DNA from: Nocardioides jiangsuensis
Lineage (GTDB): Bacteria; Actinomycetota; Actinomycetes; Propionibacteriales; Nocardioidaceae
Direction: 5' to 3'
Length of the DNA: 64,000 nt
Assembly: GCF_019679455.1 (NCBI RefSeq)
Contig: NZ_JAIEZQ010000003.1
Location: 496,001 to 560,000, forward strand
Shown piece by piece: positions 55,538 to 64,000 of this stretch (position 1 is the stretch's first letter; each line of letters begins with the position of its first letter). Both the position numbers and the translations under genes were made by a program. The notes beneath the pieces were generated by a model that saw only the letters and a list, made by a program, of their open reading frames with translations, was not told the origin of the DNA and searched no databases.

Positions 55538-56245
55538 TCAGTGACGCCGGACGTCGGTGCCGGGGTCGAACCGGTAGCCCATACCGGGCTCGTTGAGCAG
55601 GTAGCGCGGCCGCGCCGGGTCCGGCTCGAGCTTGCGGCGCAGCTGGGCCATGTAGAGCCGCAAGTTGCCCTGCGCGTTCTCGTACCCGGGCCCCCAGACC
55701 TCGCGGAGCAGCTGCTTCTGGCTGAGCAGCTTGCCGGGATGCCGCAGCAGCACCTCGAGCAGGTGCCACTCGGTCGGTGTCAGACGTACGTCGACGACGC
55801 CGTCCTCGTCGGTGTACGTGACCCTCCGGGCGGCGAGGTCGACGGTGGCCCGCCCGAGCTGCACCGCGGGCTGGCTCTCGGGCGACCCGGCGCGCCGGGT
55901 GAGGGCGCGCAGGCGGGCCAGCAGCTCGTCGACCCCGAACGGCTTGGTGAGGTAGTCGTCCGCGCCGGCGTCGAGGGCCTCGACCTTGTCGATGCTGTCG
56001 CTGCGCCCGGACAGGACGAGGATCGGCGCGCTGCTCCAGCCCCGCAGGCCCCGGATCACGTCGACCCCGTCGAGGTCCGGGAGGCCGAGGTCGAGGATCA
56101 CGAGGTCAGGCGGGTTGCGCGCCGCCGTCGCCAGCGCCTCCGCGCCGGTGGTGGCGGTGTGCACCTCGTACCGGCGGGCGCGCAGGTTGATGGCCAGGGC
56201 GCGCACGATCTGGGGCTCGTCGTCGACCACGAGGACCCGGTTCAC
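55538..56245 (-). CDS. kdpE: Response regulator KdpE
   Basis: 235 residues. Receiver domain VLVVDDEPQIVRALAINLRA with phospho-acceptor Asp52 in VILDLGLPDLDG, then TKPFGVDEL (Lys/switch region), and an OmpR-type winged helix near 140-230 (LTPTEWHLLEVLLRHPGKLL, LRLYMAQLRRKLEPDP, GMGYRF). It activates the kdp operon under potassium limitation. Overlaps kdpD by 4 bp. The direct-repeat array 63483-63542 is its likely target. Confidence 0.95.
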   Translation of the reverse strand: MNRVLVVDDEPQIVRALAINLRARRYEVHTATTGAEALATAARNPPDLVILDLGLPDLDGVDVIRGLRGWSSAPILVLSGRSDSIDKVEALDAGADDYLTKPFGVDELLARLRALTRRAGSPESQPAVQLGRATVDLAARRVTYTDEDGVVDVRLTPTEWHLLEVLLRHPGKLLSQKQLLREVWGPGYENAQGNLRLYMAQLRRKLEPDPARPRYLLNEPGMGYRFDPGTDVRRH

Positions 56246-58860
56246 GGCTCGGCCTCCGTCCGCGCCGCCGGCTCGGCACGTCGTTCACGGCGTCCCGGCT
56301 CGGGGGCCGGCGCCTGGTCTGGCGCCGGGACGGCGTTGAGCGACACGACCATGGTCAGCCCGCCGCCGGGCGTCTCCTCGGGGGTCAGCGTGCCACCCAT
56401 CACCTCGGTCAGGCCGCGGGCCAGGGCGAGGCCGAGGCCGACCCCGGTGGTGTTGTCGGTGTCGCCGAGCCGCTGGAACGGTGCGAAGACCCGCTCGCGC
56501 GCTTCCGGCGGGATCCCCGGTCCCCGGTCGATCACCCGGAGCTGCACGGTGCCCCTGAGGCGGCTCCCGGTGAGCGTGGGCGGTGCGGCGGCGGGGGAGT
56601 GGCGCACCGCGTTGGCGAGCAGGTTGGCGACGACCCGCTCCAGCAGCCCGGGGTCGGCGAGGACCTCGGGGAGGTCGTCGGGGAGGTCGATGACGACGTG
56701 CCGACCCTCGTCGCCGACGTCGTCGAGCGCGCGGGCGACCACCTCGAGCAGCGCGGTGGGGCGGGTGAGCACGTCGAGGGCACCGGCCTGGAGCCGGCTC
56801 AGGTCGAGCAGGTTGTCGACGAGTGCGGCCAGCTTGTCCAGCGACTCGTCGGCTGTCTCGAGGAGCTCCTCACGGTCCTCCTCGGACCAGTGGACGTCCC
56901 GGCTGAGCAGGCTGGTGACGGCGGCCTTGGCCGCGGCGAGCGGGGTCCGCAGGTCGTGGCCGACGGCGGCGAGCAGTGCGGTGCGCATCTTGTTCGCCTC
57001 GGCGAGGGGTACGGCGGCCGCCGCGGCCGCACTCAGCCTCTGCCGCTCCAGGACGACGGCGGCCTGCGCCGCGAACGCCCCCACGAGACGCTGCTCGTCG
57101 GCGTGCAGGGGGCGGCCCCGCAGCGCGAGGACCACGTCGTCGCCGAACGGCACCGCGGTGTCCGCCTCCTCGGGGCGGGTGCAGACGTCCGTGCCGGCTC
57201 CGGCCACCACCGACCAGTCGGCGGCCGGGCCCTGGGCCATGACCCCACCCCCGGCGCGGGGCGCGGGCCGGCGCTCGAGCAGGGTCGCCGAGGTGAGGGA
57301 GAACGACTCGCGGACCCGATCCAGGAGCGCCTGCAGGGCGTGCTCCCCGCGCAGCACGCTGCCGGCCAGCGTGGCGAGCGTCTCGGACTCGGCTGCCGAG
57401 CGCGCGGCCTGGCGGGTGCGCCGGGAGGCGAGGTCCACCACCGAGCTGACCAGGAGGGCGACCGCGACGAAGACGCCGAGGGCGAGCACGTTGTTGCCCT
57501 CGTTCACGGCGAACGTGTGCAGCGGCGGCGTGAAGTAGTAGTTGAGCAGGAGCGACCCGCCCACGGCCGCGACCAGCGCCGGCAGGAAGCCGCCGACCAG
57601 GGCGACCACCACCACGACCAGGAGGAAGACCAGCACGTCGCTGACGAGGTTCAAGGTGGCCCGGTGGGACGACAGCGTGAGCGTCAGCAGCGGGGGGAGC
57701 GCCACGGCCAGGACGAAGCCCTGGAACCGGCGGCGCGAGCTGAGCGTTCCGCGCAGCCGCGGGATCCGGGTTCCGCGGCCGGTCTCGCTGTGCGTGACGA
57801 TGTGGACGTCGATGTCGCCCGAGTCGCGGATCGTGGTGGCGCCGATGCCGGGACCCGAGAACAGGGTGGCCAGCCACGACCGCCGGCTCGCGCCGAGCAC
57901 CAGCTGGGTGGCGTTCTCGGCGCGGGCGAACGTGAGCAGGGCCTCGGGCACGTCCTCCCCGAGGATCTGGTGGTAGGTACCGCCGAGGGACTCGACGAGC
58001 CGTCGCTGGTCCGCGAGCGCGGCAGGGTCGGCGCCGGTGAGGCCGTCCGAGCGCGTGACGTGGACCGCGAGCAGCTCGCCTCCGGTCGACCGGGCGGCGA
58101 TCCGCGCCGCCCGACGGACCAGGGTCTCGCCCTCCGGCCCGCCGGTGAGCGCGACCACCACCCGCTCGCGCGTCTCCCAGGTGCCCTCGATCTCGTGCTC
58201 GGACCGGTAGGTCTGCAGGGCCTCGTCGACCTTGTCGGCGGTCCACAGCAGGGCGAGCTCGCGCAGCGCGGTCAGGTTGCCGACGCGGAAGTAGTTGCTC
58301 AGCGCCGCGTCCACCTTCTCGGCGGCGTAGACGTTGCCGTGAGCCATCCTGCGCCGCAGCGCCTCGGGTGCCATGTCGACGAGCTCCACCTGGTCGGCGG
58401 CGCGTACGACGGAGTCGGGAACCGTCTCGCGCTGGGCCACTCCGGTGATCTTGGCGACGACGTCGTTGACCGACTCGAGGTGCTGGATGTTCACCGTGGA
58501 GACCACGTCGATCCCGGCGCCGAGGAGCTCCTCGACGTCCTGCCAGCGCTTCTCGTTGCGCGACCCCGGCACGTTCGTGTGCGCGAGCTCGTCGACCAGC
58601 GCCACCGCGGGCCGGCGGGCGAGCACCGCGTCGACGTCCATCTCGGTGAACACGGCCTCGCGGTACCGCAGCTCGCGCCGGGAGACGATCTCCAGTCCCT
58701 CGGTCATCTCCGCGGTGTGCAGCCGGCCGTGGGTCTCGACGAAGCCGACGACCACGTCGGTGCCGCGCTCGAGGCGACGCCGGCCCTCGCCGAGCATGGC
58801 GTAGGTCTTGCCGACGCCGGGCGCGGCGCCCAGGTACACCCTCAACCGTCCTCGTGCCAT
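56242..58860 (-). CDS. kdpD: Sensor histidine kinase KdpD
   Basis: 872 residues. N-terminal KdpD domain with Walker A-like LGAAPGVGKTYAMLGEGRRR near 9, DELAHTNVPGSRNEKRWQD near 87 and a Usp domain near 245-360. DUF4118 with four membrane helices is near 385-490, GAF near 505-620, then HisKA AAVGHDLRTPLAAAK with phospho-His near 635 and HATPase VVANLLANAVRHSP and DRGPGIPPEAR. It senses K+ limitation or osmotic stress and phosphorylates KdpE. It lies 42 nt after kdpC and is coupled to kdpE. Confidence 0.96.
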   Translation of the reverse strand: MARGRLRVYLGAAPGVGKTYAMLGEGRRRLERGTDVVVGFVETHGRLHTAEMTEGLEIVSRRELRYREAVFTEMDVDAVLARRPAVALVDELAHTNVPGSRNEKRWQDVEELLGAGIDVVSTVNIQHLESVNDVVAKITGVAQRETVPDSVVRAADQVELVDMAPEALRRRMAHGNVYAAEKVDAALSNYFRVGNLTALRELALLWTADKVDEALQTYRSEHEIEGTWETRERVVVALTGGPEGETLVRRAARIAARSTGGELLAVHVTRSDGLTGADPAALADQRRLVESLGGTYHQILGEDVPEALLTFARAENATQLVLGASRRSWLATLFSGPGIGATTIRDSGDIDVHIVTHSETGRGTRIPRLRGTLSSRRRFQGFVLAVALPPLLTLTLSSHRATLNLVSDVLVFLLVVVVVALVGGFLPALVAAVGGSLLLNYYFTPPLHTFAVNEGNNVLALGVFVAVALLVSSVVDLASRRTRQAARSAAESETLATLAGSVLRGEHALQALLDRVRESFSLTSATLLERRPAPRAGGGVMAQGPAADWSVVAGAGTDVCTRPEEADTAVPFGDDVVLALRGRPLHADEQRLVGAFAAQAAVVLERQRLSAAAAAAVPLAEANKMRTALLAAVGHDLRTPLAAAKAAVTSLLSRDVHWSEEDREELLETADESLDKLAALVDNLLDLSRLQAGALDVLTRPTALLEVVARALDDVGDEGRHVVIDLPDDLPEVLADPGLLERVVANLLANAVRHSPAAAPPTLTGSRLRGTVQLRVIDRGPGIPPEARERVFAPFQRLGDTDNTTGVGLGLALARGLTEVMGGTLTPEETPGGGLTMVVSLNAVPAPDQAPAPEPGRRERRAEPAARTEAEP

Positions 58861-58902
58861 GCCACCTCCCGTCGGCTCGTGCGCGCGCGGCGTCGATTCC
58901 GT

Positions 58903-59583
58903 CTACTCCGAGTCTGCCTCGTCCGGCGTGCCGGCCTGCTCGTCGAGCGCCAGGTTCAGCAGCAGCACGTTGACGCGCGGCTCGCCGAGGAAGCCGAGGG
59001 ACCTGCCCTGCGTGAGGTCGTCGACCAGGCGGCGTACCTGCTCGGGGGCGAGGCCGCGCTCGCGGGCCACCCGCGCGGCCTGCAGGTGGGCGTAAGCCGG
59101 GCTGATGTGCGGGTCGAGCCCGGACCCGCTGGCGAGCAGGGCGTCCGGGGGCACCTGTTCGGGATCGACCCCGTCGAGCGCGGCGACGAGGGCCCGGCGC
59201 TCCTCCACCAGCGCGACGAGGTCCGGGTTCTCCGGGCCGTAGTTGGAGGCCGAGCTGGACAGCGGGTCGTAGCCCCCGCCCGCGGCCGAGGGCCGGTTCT
59301 GGAAGTACGCCGGGTCGGGCTCGGTGACCGGCACTCCGACGGCATCGGTGACGGGCTCACCGTCCTCGGTGACCGGCCGGGTGAAGGACTGCCCGAGGAG
59401 CTCCGAGCCGACCAGCCCGTCCCGGGACGCGACCAGCGAGCCGTCGGCGTGGTCGGGGAGGACCACCTGCGCGACGGCGGTCAGGAGCAGCGGGTAGGCC
59501 ACGCCCACGACGAGCGTCAGGACGAGCAGGGCGCGGAGCCCGGCGCCGAGCTGGCGCAGTGCGGCAGGAGTCGATGTCCTCAC
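58903..59583 (-). CDS. kdpC: K+-transporting ATPase subunit KdpC
   Basis: 226 residues. One N-terminal membrane helix near 10-35 (LRALLVLTLVVGVAYPLLLT) and a periplasmic domain with SLVASRDGLVGSELLGQSFT near 50, YFQNRPSAAGGGYDPLSSSA and SNYGPENPDL near 93, and SGSGLDPHISPAYAHLQAAR near 147, all KdpC hallmarks. It stabilises the KdpAB complex. It follows kdpB by 10 nt. Confidence 0.94.
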   Translation of the reverse strand: MRTSTPAALRQLGAGLRALLVLTLVVGVAYPLLLTAVAQVVLPDHADGSLVASRDGLVGSELLGQSFTRPVTEDGEPVTDAVGVPVTEPDPAYFQNRPSAAGGGYDPLSSSASNYGPENPDLVALVEERRALVAALDGVDPEQVPPDALLASGSGLDPHISPAYAHLQAARVARERGLAPEQVRRLVDDLTQGRSLGFLGEPRVNVLLLNLALDEQAGTPDEADSE

Positions 59584-59593
59584 GGGGTACCTC

Positions 59594-61615
59594 TCAGCCG
59601 ATTCCGGGGATCCGTGAGACCAGCAGGTCCAGGAGCTTGATGCCGACGAACGGGGCGACGACGCCGCCGAGGCCGTAGACCGTCAGGTTGCGGCGCAGCA
59701 TGGCCGCCGCCGAGGAGGGCCGGTACCGGACACCGCGCAGGGCCAACGGGATCAGCGCGACGATGACCAGCGCGTTGAAGACGACCGCGGACAGGATCGC
59801 CGACTGCGGCGTCGCCAGCCGCATGACGTTGAGCGTGTCCAGGCCGACGAAGACGCCGCTGAACATCGCCGGGATGATCGCGAAGTACTTCGCGACGTCG
59901 TTGGCGATCGAGAAGGTGGTCAGGGAGCCCCGCGTGATGAGCAGCTGCTTGCCGATGCCCACGATCTCGATGAGCTTCGTCGGGTTGGAGTCGAGGTCGA
60001 CCATGTTGCCGGCCTCCTTCGCCGCCGACGTACCGCTGTTCATCGCGACCCCGACGTCGGCCTGGGCCAGTGCGGGGGCGTCGTTGGTGCCGTCCCCGGT
60101 CATCGCGACGAGCCGGCCGCCTTCCTGCTCCCGCTTGATCAGCGCCATCTTGTCCTCGGGCGTCGCCTCGGCGAGGAAGTCGTCGACGCCGGCCTCCTCG
60201 GCGATCGCGCGCGCCGTGAGGGGGTTGTCGCCGGTGATCATCACGGTGCGGATCCCCATCCGGCGCATCTCGTCGAAGCGCTCGCGCATGCCTTCCTTGA
60301 CGATGTCCTTGAGCCCGATCACGCCGAGGGCGCGGGCGGGCCCCCCGTCGAGGTGCTCGGCGACGACGAGCGGGGTCCCCCCGGCGGTGGAGATGGCGTC
60401 GACGATCGCGCCGACCTCCTCGGTGGGATGGCCGCCGTTCTCCCGGACCCACTTCATCACCGCGGCCGCGGCGCCCTTGCGGATCCGGCGGCCACCGTCG
60501 AGGTCGACGCCGGACATCCGGGTCTGCGCGGTGAACTCGACGAAGTGCGCGTGGGTCAGCTCACCGGGCCGACGCTCGCGCAGTCCGTGGTCGCGCTTGG
60601 CGAGCACGACGATCGACCGGCCTTCCGGGGTCTCGTCGGCGAGGCTGGACAGCTGGGCGGCACTCGCGACGGCCCGGGGGTCGACGCCGTCCACCGGGTG
60701 GAACTCGGAGGCCTGCCGGTTGCCCAGCGTGATGGTGCCGGTCTTGTCGAGCAGCAGCGTGTCGACGTCGCCGGCGGCCTCGACGGCGCGCCCGGACATG
60801 GCCAGCACGTTGTGTTGCACCAGGCGGTCCATGCCGGCGATGCCGATCGCGGACAGCAGCGCCCCGATCGTGGTCGGGATCAGGCACACCAGCAGCGCCA
60901 CCAGGACGATGAGCGACTGCTCGGCGCCGGAGTAGATCGCGAACGGCTGGAGGGTGACCGTGGCGGCCAGGAAGATGACGGTCAGGCTGGCCAGCAGGAT
61001 GTCGAGGGCGATCTCGTTGGGCGTCTTCTGCCGGGAGGCGCCTTCGACGAGCGCGATCATCCGGTCGATGAAGCCCTCGCCGGGCTTCGCGGTGATCCGG
61101 ACCACGATCCGGTCCGAGAGCACCCTGGTGCCCCCGGTGACCGAGCTGCGGTCGCCGCCGGACTCGCGGATCACCGGGGCGGACTCGCCGGTGATCGCCG
61201 ACTCGTCGACGCTGGCGATCCCCTCGACCACGTCGCCGTCGCCGGGGATGATCTGCCCTGCCTCGACCACCACGTGGTCGCCGACCAGCAGGTCGGGAGC
61301 ACCGACCTGCTCCTCCGAGCCGTCCTCGCGCAGGCGCCGTGCCACGGTCTCGGTCTTGGCGCGGCGGAGCGTGGCGGCCTGCGCCTTGCCGCGTCCCTCG
61401 GCGACGGCCTCCGCCAGGTTCGCGAAGACGACGGTGAGCCACAGCCACGCCACCACCGACCAGGCGAAGGTGCTGGGGACGGTGACGGCCAGGACCGTCG
61501 ACAGCACGGCGCCGGTCTCGACCACGAACATGACGGGGTGCCTGACCATGGTTCGCGGGTCGAGCTTGCGCAGCGCGTCCGGGAGCGAGGACGCCAGCAG
61601 GTGGAGGGGGGTCAC
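59594..61615 (-). CDS. kdpB: K+-transporting P-type ATPase subunit KdpB
   Basis: 673 residues. P-type motifs: [15 protein letters not shown] near 150, phosphorylation loop [15 protein letters not shown] near 298, [19 protein letters not shown] near 460 and [20 protein letters not shown] near 508. It hydrolyses ATP to drive K+ through KdpA. GTG 61615 overlaps the kdpA stop by 4 bp (GTGA). The larger open frame upstream is antisense or out-of-phase within kdpA. Confidence 0.96.
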
Positions 61616-63273
61616 GACAGGCCCTCCGCGAGCGGACCGAGGGCGAGGACCGGGAAGAAGGTGAGCCCGGCGACGACGACGACCACGCCGGTCAGCATCC
61701 CGACGAACAGCGGGCGGTGGGTCGGCAGCGTCCCCGCCGTGGCCGGCACGTGCTGCTGGCCGGCCAGGGAGCCGGCGAGGGCCAGCACCAGCACGATCGG
61801 GACGAAGCGCACGAAGAGCATGGTGAGACCGAGCACGGTGTTGTACCAGGCGCTGTCGACCGAGAGGCCGGCGAACGCCGACCCGTTGTTGTTGCCGGCC
61901 GACATGAACGCGTAGAGCACCTCGGACAGCCCGTGCGGCCCCGGGTTGAGGATCGACTCCCGGGGGCCCGGCAGGGCCATCGACACCCCCGTGCCGGCCA
62001 GCACGACGACCGGCATCGTGAGGATGTACAGCGCGACCAGCTTCATCTCGCGGGCGCGGATCTTCTTGCGCAGGTACTCCGGCGTGCGGCCGACCATCAG
62101 ACCGGCCACGAACACGGCCAGGATCGCCAGCACGAGCATGCCGTACAGCCCGGAGCCGACCCCGCCCGGCGCCACCTCGCCGAGACCCATGTTGAGGAGC
62201 AGCAGTCCGCCCGACACCGCGGTGAACGAGGAGTGGAAGGAGTTGACCGCTCCGGCGGAGGTGCCGGTGGTGGACACCGCGAACAGCGACGACGCGGCCT
62301 CGCCGAAGCGAGTCTCCTTGCCCTCCATCGACGCTCCGGCGAGCCCGAACGCCGTACCCGGGTGTGACGCCTCGAGCGCGGTCACCCCGACGAGCAGCAC
62401 CGCCCAGATCACGCCCATCGCGGCGAGCACGGCGTACCCCTGCCGCGTGTCGCCGACCAGGACGCCGAACGTCCTGGTCAGCGCGACCGGGATCAGCAGG
62501 AGCAGGAAGACCTCGACCAGGTTGCTCACCGGGGTCGGGTTCTCGAAGGGGTGAGCGGCGTTGACGTTGTAGAAGCCGCCCCCGTTGGTGCCCAGCTCCT
62601 TGATGACCTCCTGCGACGCGACCGGGCCTCCGGTGATGGTCTGGGACTGACCGGTGAGCGTGGTGACCTCGATCCCGGCGCTCAGGTTCTGCACCGCCCC
62701 CAGCGCCACCAGGACGAGCGTGGCCAGGACCGCGATCGGCAGCAGGATACGCAGGGTGCCGCGGACCAGGTCCACCCAGAAGTTGCCGACGCGGTCGGTG
62801 CGGGCTCGCCGGAAGCCACGGACCAGCGCGACGGCGACGGCGATGCCGACCGCGGCCGAGACGAAGTTCTGCACCGCGAGCCCGGACATCTGCGTGAGGT
62901 GACCCATCGTCGACTCGCCGGAGTAGGACTGCCAGTTGGTGTTGGTGACGAACGAGGCAGCGGTGTTGAACGCCTGGTCGGGGGCGACACCGGGGAAGCC
63001 GAGGGAGAGCGGCAGCCGTGGCTGGAGGCGCTGGAGCGTGTACAGGCCCAGGACGCTCACGAACGAGAAGGCGAGGAGGGACCGGGCGTAGACCGCCCAC
63101 CGCTGGTCGGCATCGGGATCGACGCCCATCACGCGGTAGAGCCCGCGCTCGATCCGGGTGTGGTGCTCGTCGACGTAGACCCGGGCCATGTAGTCGCCGA
63201 GGGGACGGTAGGCCAGGGCCAGGGCCACGAGCAGCGTCACGACCTGGAGCAGGGCGGCGGTGGCGTCGGACAT
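61612..63273 (-). CDS. kdpA: K+-transporting ATPase subunit KdpA
   Basis: 553 residues, about ten membrane helices. The four selectivity-filter-type segments are visible: [15 protein letters not shown] near 110, [20 protein letters not shown] near 228, [16 protein letters not shown] near 340 and [20 protein letters not shown] near 460. It forms the K+ channel-like path. ATG 63273 follows the kdpF stop directly, so the two are coupled. Confidence 0.97.
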
Positions 63274-63363
63274 CTAGAAACGCTCCGGGAACAGCAGGGC
63301 CACCAGGAGGTAGCCGAGGAGGAGGACCGAGATGACGAGGGCGACTGAGTGTTCGGCGCTCAC
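63274..63363 (-). CDS. kdpF: KdpF small membrane subunit
   Basis: 29 residues, [20 protein letters not shown] then VALLFPERF: one helix with the ERF ending of KdpF. GTG 63363 overlaps the stop of the preceding small ORF (GTGA). The stop abuts the kdpA ATG. It stabilises the Kdp complex. Confidence 0.88.
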
Positions 63364-63443
63364 AGTCGCTCGACCGCCTTGACCACCAGAGCGGAGACGA
63401 CGAAGAACAGCGCGGTCAGCGCGATGAAGGTGAGGTCGGCCAT
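63360..63443 (-). CDS. 27-residue single-helix protein at the head of the kdp operon
   Basis: [20 protein letters not shown] then VKAVERL: one membrane helix plus a charged end. Its TGA overlaps the kdpF GTG by 4 bp, so it is translated with the operon. The predicted helix and coupling suggest a real accessory peptide of the pump or a leader for kdpF. I recall similar small ORFs ahead of kdpF in other actinobacteria, but this needs a database check. Confidence 0.65.
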
Positions 63444-63482
63444 GACTCGATTGAACGCCGCGCGACGCCGCAGCGGCATGCC

Positions 63483-63542
63483 CCTAACGGCGCCCTAACG
63501 GTGGTGCGGACGTCCCTGACGCGATCCTGACACGGTCCTCAC
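63483..63542 (-). promoter_or_regulatory. Five-repeat KdpE-type operator upstream of the kdp operon
   Basis: CCTAACGG at 63483-63490 and 63494-63501 are exactly 11 bp apart. CCTGAC at 63515-63520 and 63526-63531 and CCTCAC at 63537-63542 continue at exactly 11-bp spacing. On the operon strand these read as GT[T/C/G]AGG direct repeats, one helical turn apart, as for OmpR/PhoP-family regulators. They lie 40-100 nt before the first small ORF. Confidence 0.6.
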
Positions 63543-63615
63543 GAACACGGGCGACGGGAGCGGGTGACGAGGCGGGAACTGGGTACTCCCACGTCAGGTG
63601 AGGGAGGTGAGAGTC

Positions 63616-63981
63616 ATGCAGTTCTTTCGCGCGTTCGGAGGCGGGCTGCTCTGGATCGTGGCGTCCCTGGTCGGCCTGGTGGCCGGGATCCTGTGCGTCA
63701 CCGTGATCCTTCTTCCGCTGGGGATCCCGCTGCTGGGCCTGGCTCGCAAGCTCTTCGGTCAGGCGACGACGATGATGCTGCCGCGGTCGTTGTCCCATCC
63801 GGTCGAGGAGACGAAGAGGTCGTGGCGCAAGAAGAGGCGCAAGGCCAAGGGCACCGGCCCGGACGTGGGTCGCGTCGCCGAGAAGGGCAAGAAGCAGGTC
63901 GCCAAGGGCAAGAAGCAGGCTGCCAAGGGCAAGAAGCGTCTGGCCAAGAAGACGAAGCGCCGCAAGGGCCTCTTCGGCTGA
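63616..63981 (+). CDS. Membrane protein with lysine-rich C-terminal tail
   Basis: 121 residues. Two hydrophobic segments (FRAFGGGLLWIVASLVGLVA and GILCVTVILLPLGIPLLGLA), then an Arg/Lys-rich tail with repeated KGKK units (KGKKQVAKGKKQAAKGKKR). The tail might contact nucleic acid or membrane lipid; function unknown. ATG 63616 follows GGGAGGTGAG. Divergent from the kdp operon and next to its operator. Confidence 0.65.
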   Translation: MQFFRAFGGGLLWIVASLVGLVAGILCVTVILLPLGIPLLGLARKLFGQATTMMLPRSLSHPVEETKRSWRKKRRKAKGTGPDVGRVAEKGKKQVAKGKKQAAKGKKRLAKKTKRRKGLFG

Positions 63982-64000
63982 CCGGTGGTGGGTGGACCGG

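Follow-up and report, generated by a model that had tools for sequence, protein, structure and literature searches.

The kdp Operon and the Repeat Array Upstream of It

The window analyzed here is a stretch of 64,000 nucleotides of Nocardioides jiangsuensis DNA, the last 8.5 kb of which hold a minus-strand kdp operon consisting of a leader ORF followed by kdpF, kdpA, kdpB, kdpC, kdpD, and kdpE. The 27-codon leader ORF (MADLTF...VERL; 63360..63443, minus strand) matched no NCBIfam or Pfam family and lies directly before kdpF (63274..63363, minus strand; NCBIfam TIGR02115), whose GTG start overlaps the leader stop. These are followed by kdpA (61612..63273, minus strand; TIGR00680, 690.8 bits against a cut-off of 387.7), kdpB (59594..61615, minus strand; GTG start assumed, named from its position and sequence), kdpC (58903..59583, minus strand; TIGR00681, 178.6 bits against a cut-off of 152.55), and the sensor kinase gene kdpD (56242..58860, minus strand), for which the best NCBIfam model, NF007793 (KdpD), scored below its cut-off and PF02702 matched with an E-value of 2.3e-98. 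The initial annotation had placed kdpE in this operon, and we found it there as the last gene of kdpF-A-B-C-D-E (55538..56245, minus strand), encoding a response regulator of the OmpR/PhoB family that is the proposed binder of the array described below. The best NCBIfam model for its product was NF007820 (KdpE), below cut-off, and the match to Escherichia coli KdpE (4kny) had an E-value of 1.7e-64. Residues R193 and R200, described as required for DNA binding by E. coli KdpE (PMC3264566), correspond to R196 and R203 in the KdpE of the window, and T215 corresponds to N218. On the plus strand, a divergent gene (63616-63981) encodes a 121-residue membrane-protein-like product with a lysine-rich tail of KGKKQ repeats, for which no family match was obtained.

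The leader ORF (ATG at 63443) and the divergent gene (ATG at 63616) share a 172-bp intergenic region that contains the array. Direct reading of the sequence together with a script check confirmed five direct repeats with 11-bp steps within each group, as initially annotated: on the plus strand these are CCTAAC at 63483-63488 and 63494-63499, CCTGAC at 63515-63520 and 63526-63531, and CCTCAC at 63537-63542, with successive steps of 11, 21, 11, and 11 bp. In the kdp sense (minus strand, from 63542 to 63483) the array reads as five GTNAGG units with steps of 11, 11, 21, and 11 bp, the 11-bp steps being exact within both groups and the groups being joined by 21 bp, or two helical turns. We number the proposed KdpE half-sites in this direction, such that units 1 and 2 (both GTCAGG; 63526..63531 and 63515..63520, minus strand) form a distal pair and units 3 and 4 (both GTTAGG; 63494..63499 and 63483..63488, minus strand) form a promoter-proximal pair, and the outermost, extra half-site (GTGAGG; 63537..63542, minus strand) is referred to as the fifth unit.

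Conservation across Actinobacterial kdp Loci

In order to compare the array with those of relatives, we used 175 sequences upstream of kdpA, comprising 80 broad loci, 94 family upstreams, and the window. The broad loci were among the matches listed from at least 590 confirmed relatives in a species-level genome collection, the family sample covered 197 genomes (95 with KdpA, counting the genome of the window itself), and two duplicate loci from that same genome (L001 and L082) were left out of the set. When GTNAGG letters were counted at steps of 10 or 11, then 20-22, and then 11 bp, 60 of the 175 upstreams scored at least 16/20, compared with 1 of the 175 reversed controls and 6 of the 175 reverse-complemented ones. 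Distances between GTNARG pairs in the same upstreams peaked at 11 (83 loci), 21 (64), 32 (69), and 43 bp (14), and less strongly at 10 and 22; Markov controls gave 0.2-0.4 at the peak distances, and the opposite strand gave 18, 0, 3, and 1 loci, respectively, with a small peak at 11. The four main peaks are the differences expected from units starting at 0, 11, 32, and 43.

Cross-validation, in which the matrix was re-estimated inside each training half, gave the same layout a score above 12 bits in 72 of 80 broad loci with the matrix from the family half (reversed 0/80, reverse-complement 7/80) and in 74 of 95 family loci with the matrix from the broad half (reversed 1/95, reverse-complement 1/95), leaving 29 loci missed at that threshold. 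With only the 80 broad loci used for training, the matrix scored the window at 34.7 bits. The in-sample matrix exceeded 10 bits in 168 of 175 upstreams (3 reversed and 10 reverse-complemented), a count that is inflated by training. Part of the reverse-complement matches are real divergent operators, and none of these counts represents independent events, since the sequences are related. Conservation in other actinobacterial kdp promoters was a check suggested with the initial annotation, and it proved strong, in the form of a four-unit 11-21-11 layout before kdpFABC.

The consensus unit is CGTNA(A/G)G(A/G), with units 2-4 strong and unit 1, the weakest of the four in the profile, nonetheless carrying clear information at GT and A. 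Strict GTNARG was present at units 1, 2, 3, and 4 in 32, 92, 91, and 96 of the 167 array-bearing loci, respectively. A strict counterpart of the fifth unit occurred in only 4 of these 167 kdp upstreams, the window included, and its rarity marks it as a local feature that is not conserved in relatives. A unit inside the 21-bp join was found in 27 of 167 loci at offset 22 from unit 1 and in 8 of 167 at offset 21. By sequence, the conserved object is a set of four units arranged two plus two, in which the 21-bp join is itself conserved.

Promoter and Leader Region

In a profile of 146 loci, T was enriched at +33 (0.53), +34 (0.66), and +38 (0.58) from the start of unit 4, and no -35-like columns stood out. 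On the basis of these T-rich columns, TTCAAT (63450..63455, minus strand; 33 nt from the unit 4 start) is a putative -10 element, the position of which would set the transcription start site near 63443, the A of the leader ATG, and would put unit 4 at about -45 to -40. By eye, this element is unlike the SigF-like boxes proposed for Mycobacterium smegmatis (GTTC-N13-GGGCA), where the region before kdpF was reported as a 120-bp 5' UTR (PMC5401905). A search of 56000-64000 with Rfam at the gathering threshold found no RNA family; the known c-di-AMP riboswitch model was thus also without a match there.

Similar single-helix ORFs before kdpF were also observed in many actinobacterial loci; 84 of the 128 loci with a recognized kdpF (of 167) passed a simple hydrophobicity filter, at least two of which (L060 and L086) look unrelated. 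Additionally, five loci (L084, L089, L090, L094, and L002) have an extra membrane-protein-like ORF of about 115-130 codons between the operator and kdpF, which is absent from the window.

Comparison with Known KdpE Sites

In M. smegmatis, kdp is activated by KdpD/KdpE, and at low potassium kdpFABC is transcribed together with kdpDE (PMC5401905). According to the same study, KdpE protects 18 bp in that species and its binding needs a 22-bp sequence containing GTAAAG-N5-ATCAAG. This PkdpF site shares with the array the form of the half-site, the 11-bp step, and the place upstream of kdp, its second unit being ATCAAG; the array of the window accordingly has the two features of the M. smegmatis type of operator, an 11-bp GTNARG-like repeat and a position upstream of kdpFABC with kdpDE. 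The two differ in that a single KdpE site was reported for M. smegmatis (PMC5401905), whereas four conserved units (11-21-11) and a fifth are present here. The exact 22-mer was absent from 148 genomes of one genus (g31, taken for Mycobacterium), and with 2 mismatches it was found in 3 of the 148, coinciding with units 3-4 in all three. Among these three closest relatives of the 22-mer, the distal pair was also good in two and degenerate in the third (L257). In five named mycobacterial loci, the best match to the 22-mer (15-18 of 22 positions) lay at the distal pair in three and at the proximal pair in two. For Mycobacterium tuberculosis, the M. smegmatis paper reports that a similar sequence was not found, and it cites a study in which KdpE did not bind the kdp intergenic region (PMC5401905).

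In E. coli, the two half-sites that KdpE occupies are separated by an 11-bp step (PMC3264566). The E. coli kdpFABC-BS described there is AT-rich (TTTATA/TTTACA), consists of one pair, and spans -72 to -50, whereas the array here is built of GTNARG units in two pairs, with the proximal pair nearer to the inferred start. An assignment to the E. coli type of site, with AT-rich, TT-initial half-sites, was rejected, as the units are GTGAGG, GTCAGG, and GTTAGG.

The single M. smegmatis site bears on a reading in which KdpE binds the proximal pair only and the distal and fifth units are decoys, relics, or chance occurrences. The M. smegmatis footprint is one 18-bp stretch (PMC5401905), unit 1 is weak, the fifth unit is rare, and the distal pair of L257 is degenerate, all of which would fit such a reading. 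However, unit 2 is conserved to the same degree as units 3 and 4 (92, 91, and 96 of 167), and this conservation, together with the information at GT and A in unit 1, indicates that the distal pair has been kept in many lineages. We therefore regard proximal-only binding as rather unlikely.

Association of the Proposed Operator with KdpD and KdpE

To look beyond kdpA upstreams, we used R1, a sequence-only operator model of 55 sequences from many actinobacteria, the window included. Applied to the whole genome of N. jiangsuensis, R1 gave one strong match, which is the kdp array (37.8 bits, E-value 5.9e-9). A second strong operator was not found in this genome; the next of the 24 R1 matches listed (17.1 bits, E-value 0.02) was rejected as such, the matrix showing no four-unit array there.

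A class-level sample of 296 genomes contained R1 matches (E-value 1e-3) in 101, KdpA (E-value 1e-80) in 142, and KdpD (PF02702) in 161. Part of the R1 matches are in-sample, given that the training set includes some kdp loci from family genomes also present in the class sample. Operator and KdpD occurred together in 85 genomes, the operator only in 16, KdpD only in 76, and neither in 119 (Fisher p = 3.8e-14, uncorrected for relatedness). At this threshold R1 had no match in 60 of the 142 KdpA genomes and in 76 of the 161 KdpD genomes. Twenty hand-picked kdp upstreams from R1-negative lineages (f19, f21, f34, f37, and f39) were rescored with the matrix, and 14 exceeded 12 bits on the kdp strand and 2 on the opposite strand, with reversed scores never above 3.7; the six that did not exceed 12 bits included all three from family f21.

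Among the 16 operator genomes without PF02702, 13 have on the operator contig, beside the operator or about 2 kb from it, a gene for a truncated KdpD-like kinase that matches the KdpD of the window from residue 343-382 onward, and one (G201) has such a kinase on another contig. A KdpD-specific kinase match was obtained neither in G197, which gave no kinase, nor in G216, which gave a generic kinase match only, despite the operators in both. In all four truncated-kinase operons that were read further, a gene for a KdpE 60-65% identical to that of the window follows. The presence of truncated kdpD and kdpE beside operators suggests that the operator follows the kdpD and kdpE genes even where KdpA was not detected, the exceptions to this co-occurrence being G197, G216, and the 76 KdpD genomes without a match. 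Furthermore, four Nocardia loci (L025, L028, L045, and L066) carry back-to-back operators, one facing kdp and the other, in reverse orientation and scoring 27-37 bits, facing a divergent kdpD whose product is 52-54% identical to the KdpD of the window.

Proposed Operators before Other Genes

The 141 R1 matches in the class sample comprised at least 71 within 1.2 kb upstream of a same-strand kdpA (in at least 69 genomes) and 70 elsewhere, as judged among the kdpA places listed. From these 70 we inspected 49 loci, representing 47 distinct places. Eleven of the places lie before kdpD or truncated kdpD, eight before a gene for a KimA-like importer (with kdpD' next in one case), and eight before a lysA-like diaminopimelate decarboxylase gene, several of these with a small intervening ORF. 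The remainder were two places before a kdpA missing from the list and 18 without gene assignment, among them a decayed kdp locus (L251) with pieces of KdpB and KdpD. The KimA-like genes were named from L227, which matched the structure of KimA (PDB 6s3k) with an E-value of 6.1e-88, the other seven being 37-50% identical to L227. Similarly, the lysA-like places (L221, L222, L223, L238, L241, L243, L244, and L252) were named from L241 (TIGR01048, 394 bits against a cut-off of 298), to which the other seven are 52-59% identical, one over 105 residues only.

The order operator-kimA-kdpD'-kdpE was found at two loci (L279 in G208 and L282 in G433), with no KdpA detected and with a kinase that does not have the KdpD N-terminal domain. 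In two further genomes (G230, L189; G204, L234) the operator occurs with kimA and a kinase, again with no KdpA detected. We consider it an evenly balanced proposition that a KdpE operator of four half-sites is spread over much of the actinobacteria and that its predicted regulon adds KimA importers, some of them in kimA-kdpD'-kdpE operons without detected Kdp, and the lysA-like decarboxylase.

Two side observations concern other neighboring genes. In one locus (L218; G330:C14), a strong operator stands before a gene whose product, named by eye, looks like a universal-stress-type protein. In Nocardioidaceae-type relatives, a GTTAGG-like pair or triplet, made of 2-3 GTNARG units that are mostly spaced by 11 bp, faces a divergent protein that is transporter-like and has about 600 residues (L002:3-1820, minus strand; L083-L085, L088, L089, and L091-L093). 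This protein had no meaningful Pfam, PDB, or NCBIfam family, its sole Pfam line being far below cut-off, and a search without a positive control gave no homolog at an E-value of 1e-3 in the genome of the window.

Other Readings of the Array

Direct repeats at 11-bp steps are also used by other OmpR-family regulators of actinobacteria, including GlnR and MtrA. The PHO box read by PhoP in Streptomyces is made of GTTCACC units at 11-bp steps, and the GlnR box has the form GTNAC-N6-GTNAC. By inspection, neither box was recognized in the array, the units differing from GTTCACC and the fifth base being G in every unit and not C. In M. tuberculosis, PhoP sites consist of 7-bp repeats with a 4-bp spacer (PMC4832192). 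These PhoP sites and the Streptomyces PHO boxes resemble the array in their 11-bp direct repeats and OmpR-family reader and differ from it in the letters of the unit and in the target genes. Binding by a regulator of the PhoP, GlnR, or MtrA type, which would put kdp under phosphate, nitrogen, or envelope control, has the spacing in its favor (PMC4832192), but the GTNARG unit is unlike those of PhoP and GlnR, the operator accompanies kdp, kdpD, and kimA-kdpD'-kdpE genes, and the single strong copy in the genome is unlike what a global regulator would have. We judge this reading very unlikely.

A role of the array in the control of the divergent gene at 63616 (plus strand), equal to or in place of its role for kdp, is slightly less likely still. 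The shared 172-bp intergenic region would permit this, and some relatives have separate units facing the divergent gene. Against it, all five units point to kdp and lie at a conserved distance from the -10-like element of kdp, the divergent gene varies among relatives where the array is constant, and those divergent genes that do seem to be controlled carry reversed units of their own.

Although short repeats in two copies commonly arise by chance, the probability that the array is a chance product of GC-rich DNA is negligible, as the four-unit core, with as many as 3 mismatches allowed, matched once in the 64 kb window and never in 100 dinucleotide shuffles, and conservation in cross-validation already refutes it. 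When the letters were left free, a 6-mer repeated with at least 5 of 6 positions at the five array offsets occurred once in the window (both strands) and not at all with each of eight control spacings, an architecture that was picked after the array had been seen; the 3.97 Mb genome has a single occurrence of CCTNAC at three 11-bp steps.

Proposed Mechanism

The suggestion that the repeats are bound by an OmpR-family regulator, with KdpE as the candidate, gained support from the conservation of the array, from the published M. smegmatis site, from the operators before kdpD (divergent from kdp in the four Nocardia loci) and kimA-kdpD'-kdpE, and from the co-occurrence of operator and KdpD. Taken together, the sequence data indicate that the repeats are very probably a real, conserved KdpE operator. 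We further consider it highly likely that the array is the operator of kdpF-A-B-C-D-E, at which two tandem KdpE dimers sharing one DNA face would activate kdp and kdpDE at low potassium. KdpE binding in this organism, the dimer-of-dimers occupancy, the start site, and activation rather than repression are inferred here from sequence.

KdpE dimers bind head-to-tail. Phosphorylated KdpE would occupy units 1-2 with one such dimer and units 3-4 with another, and with unit starts at 0, 11, 32, and 43 bp the dimers would be 32 bp apart on the same face of the DNA. The proximal dimer would end about 40 bp before the inferred start, immediately ahead of the -35 region, and from there it could aid RNA polymerase at a promoter that has no conserved -35. 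Potassium scarcity would then yield more pump and, by readthrough, more KdpDE, which would constitute a positive loop. The spare fifth half-site may extend the array or permit alternative registers. Binding to the array may be cooperative, as the initial annotation had it, although the DNA-binding domain of E. coli KdpE bound its two half-sites with no discernible cooperativity (PMC3264566).

Significance

Among the top-listed open-access papers, we found none that describes an actinobacterial KdpE operator with four half-sites or that places kimA or lysA under KdpE. The layout is a variation on a known KdpE site, and the predicted regulon beyond Kdp is the more novel part. KdpE targets in actinobacteria are poorly mapped, and according to a 2023 review no Streptomyces model had been analyzed for KdpDE (PMC10117811). 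An operator with a fixed grammar would make such targets predictable from sequence, and the single published mycobacterial site may be half of such an operator. The prediction that follows is that KdpE governs KimA importers and kdpDE itself, and the lysA-like target, if true, would tie potassium starvation to amine or lysine metabolism.
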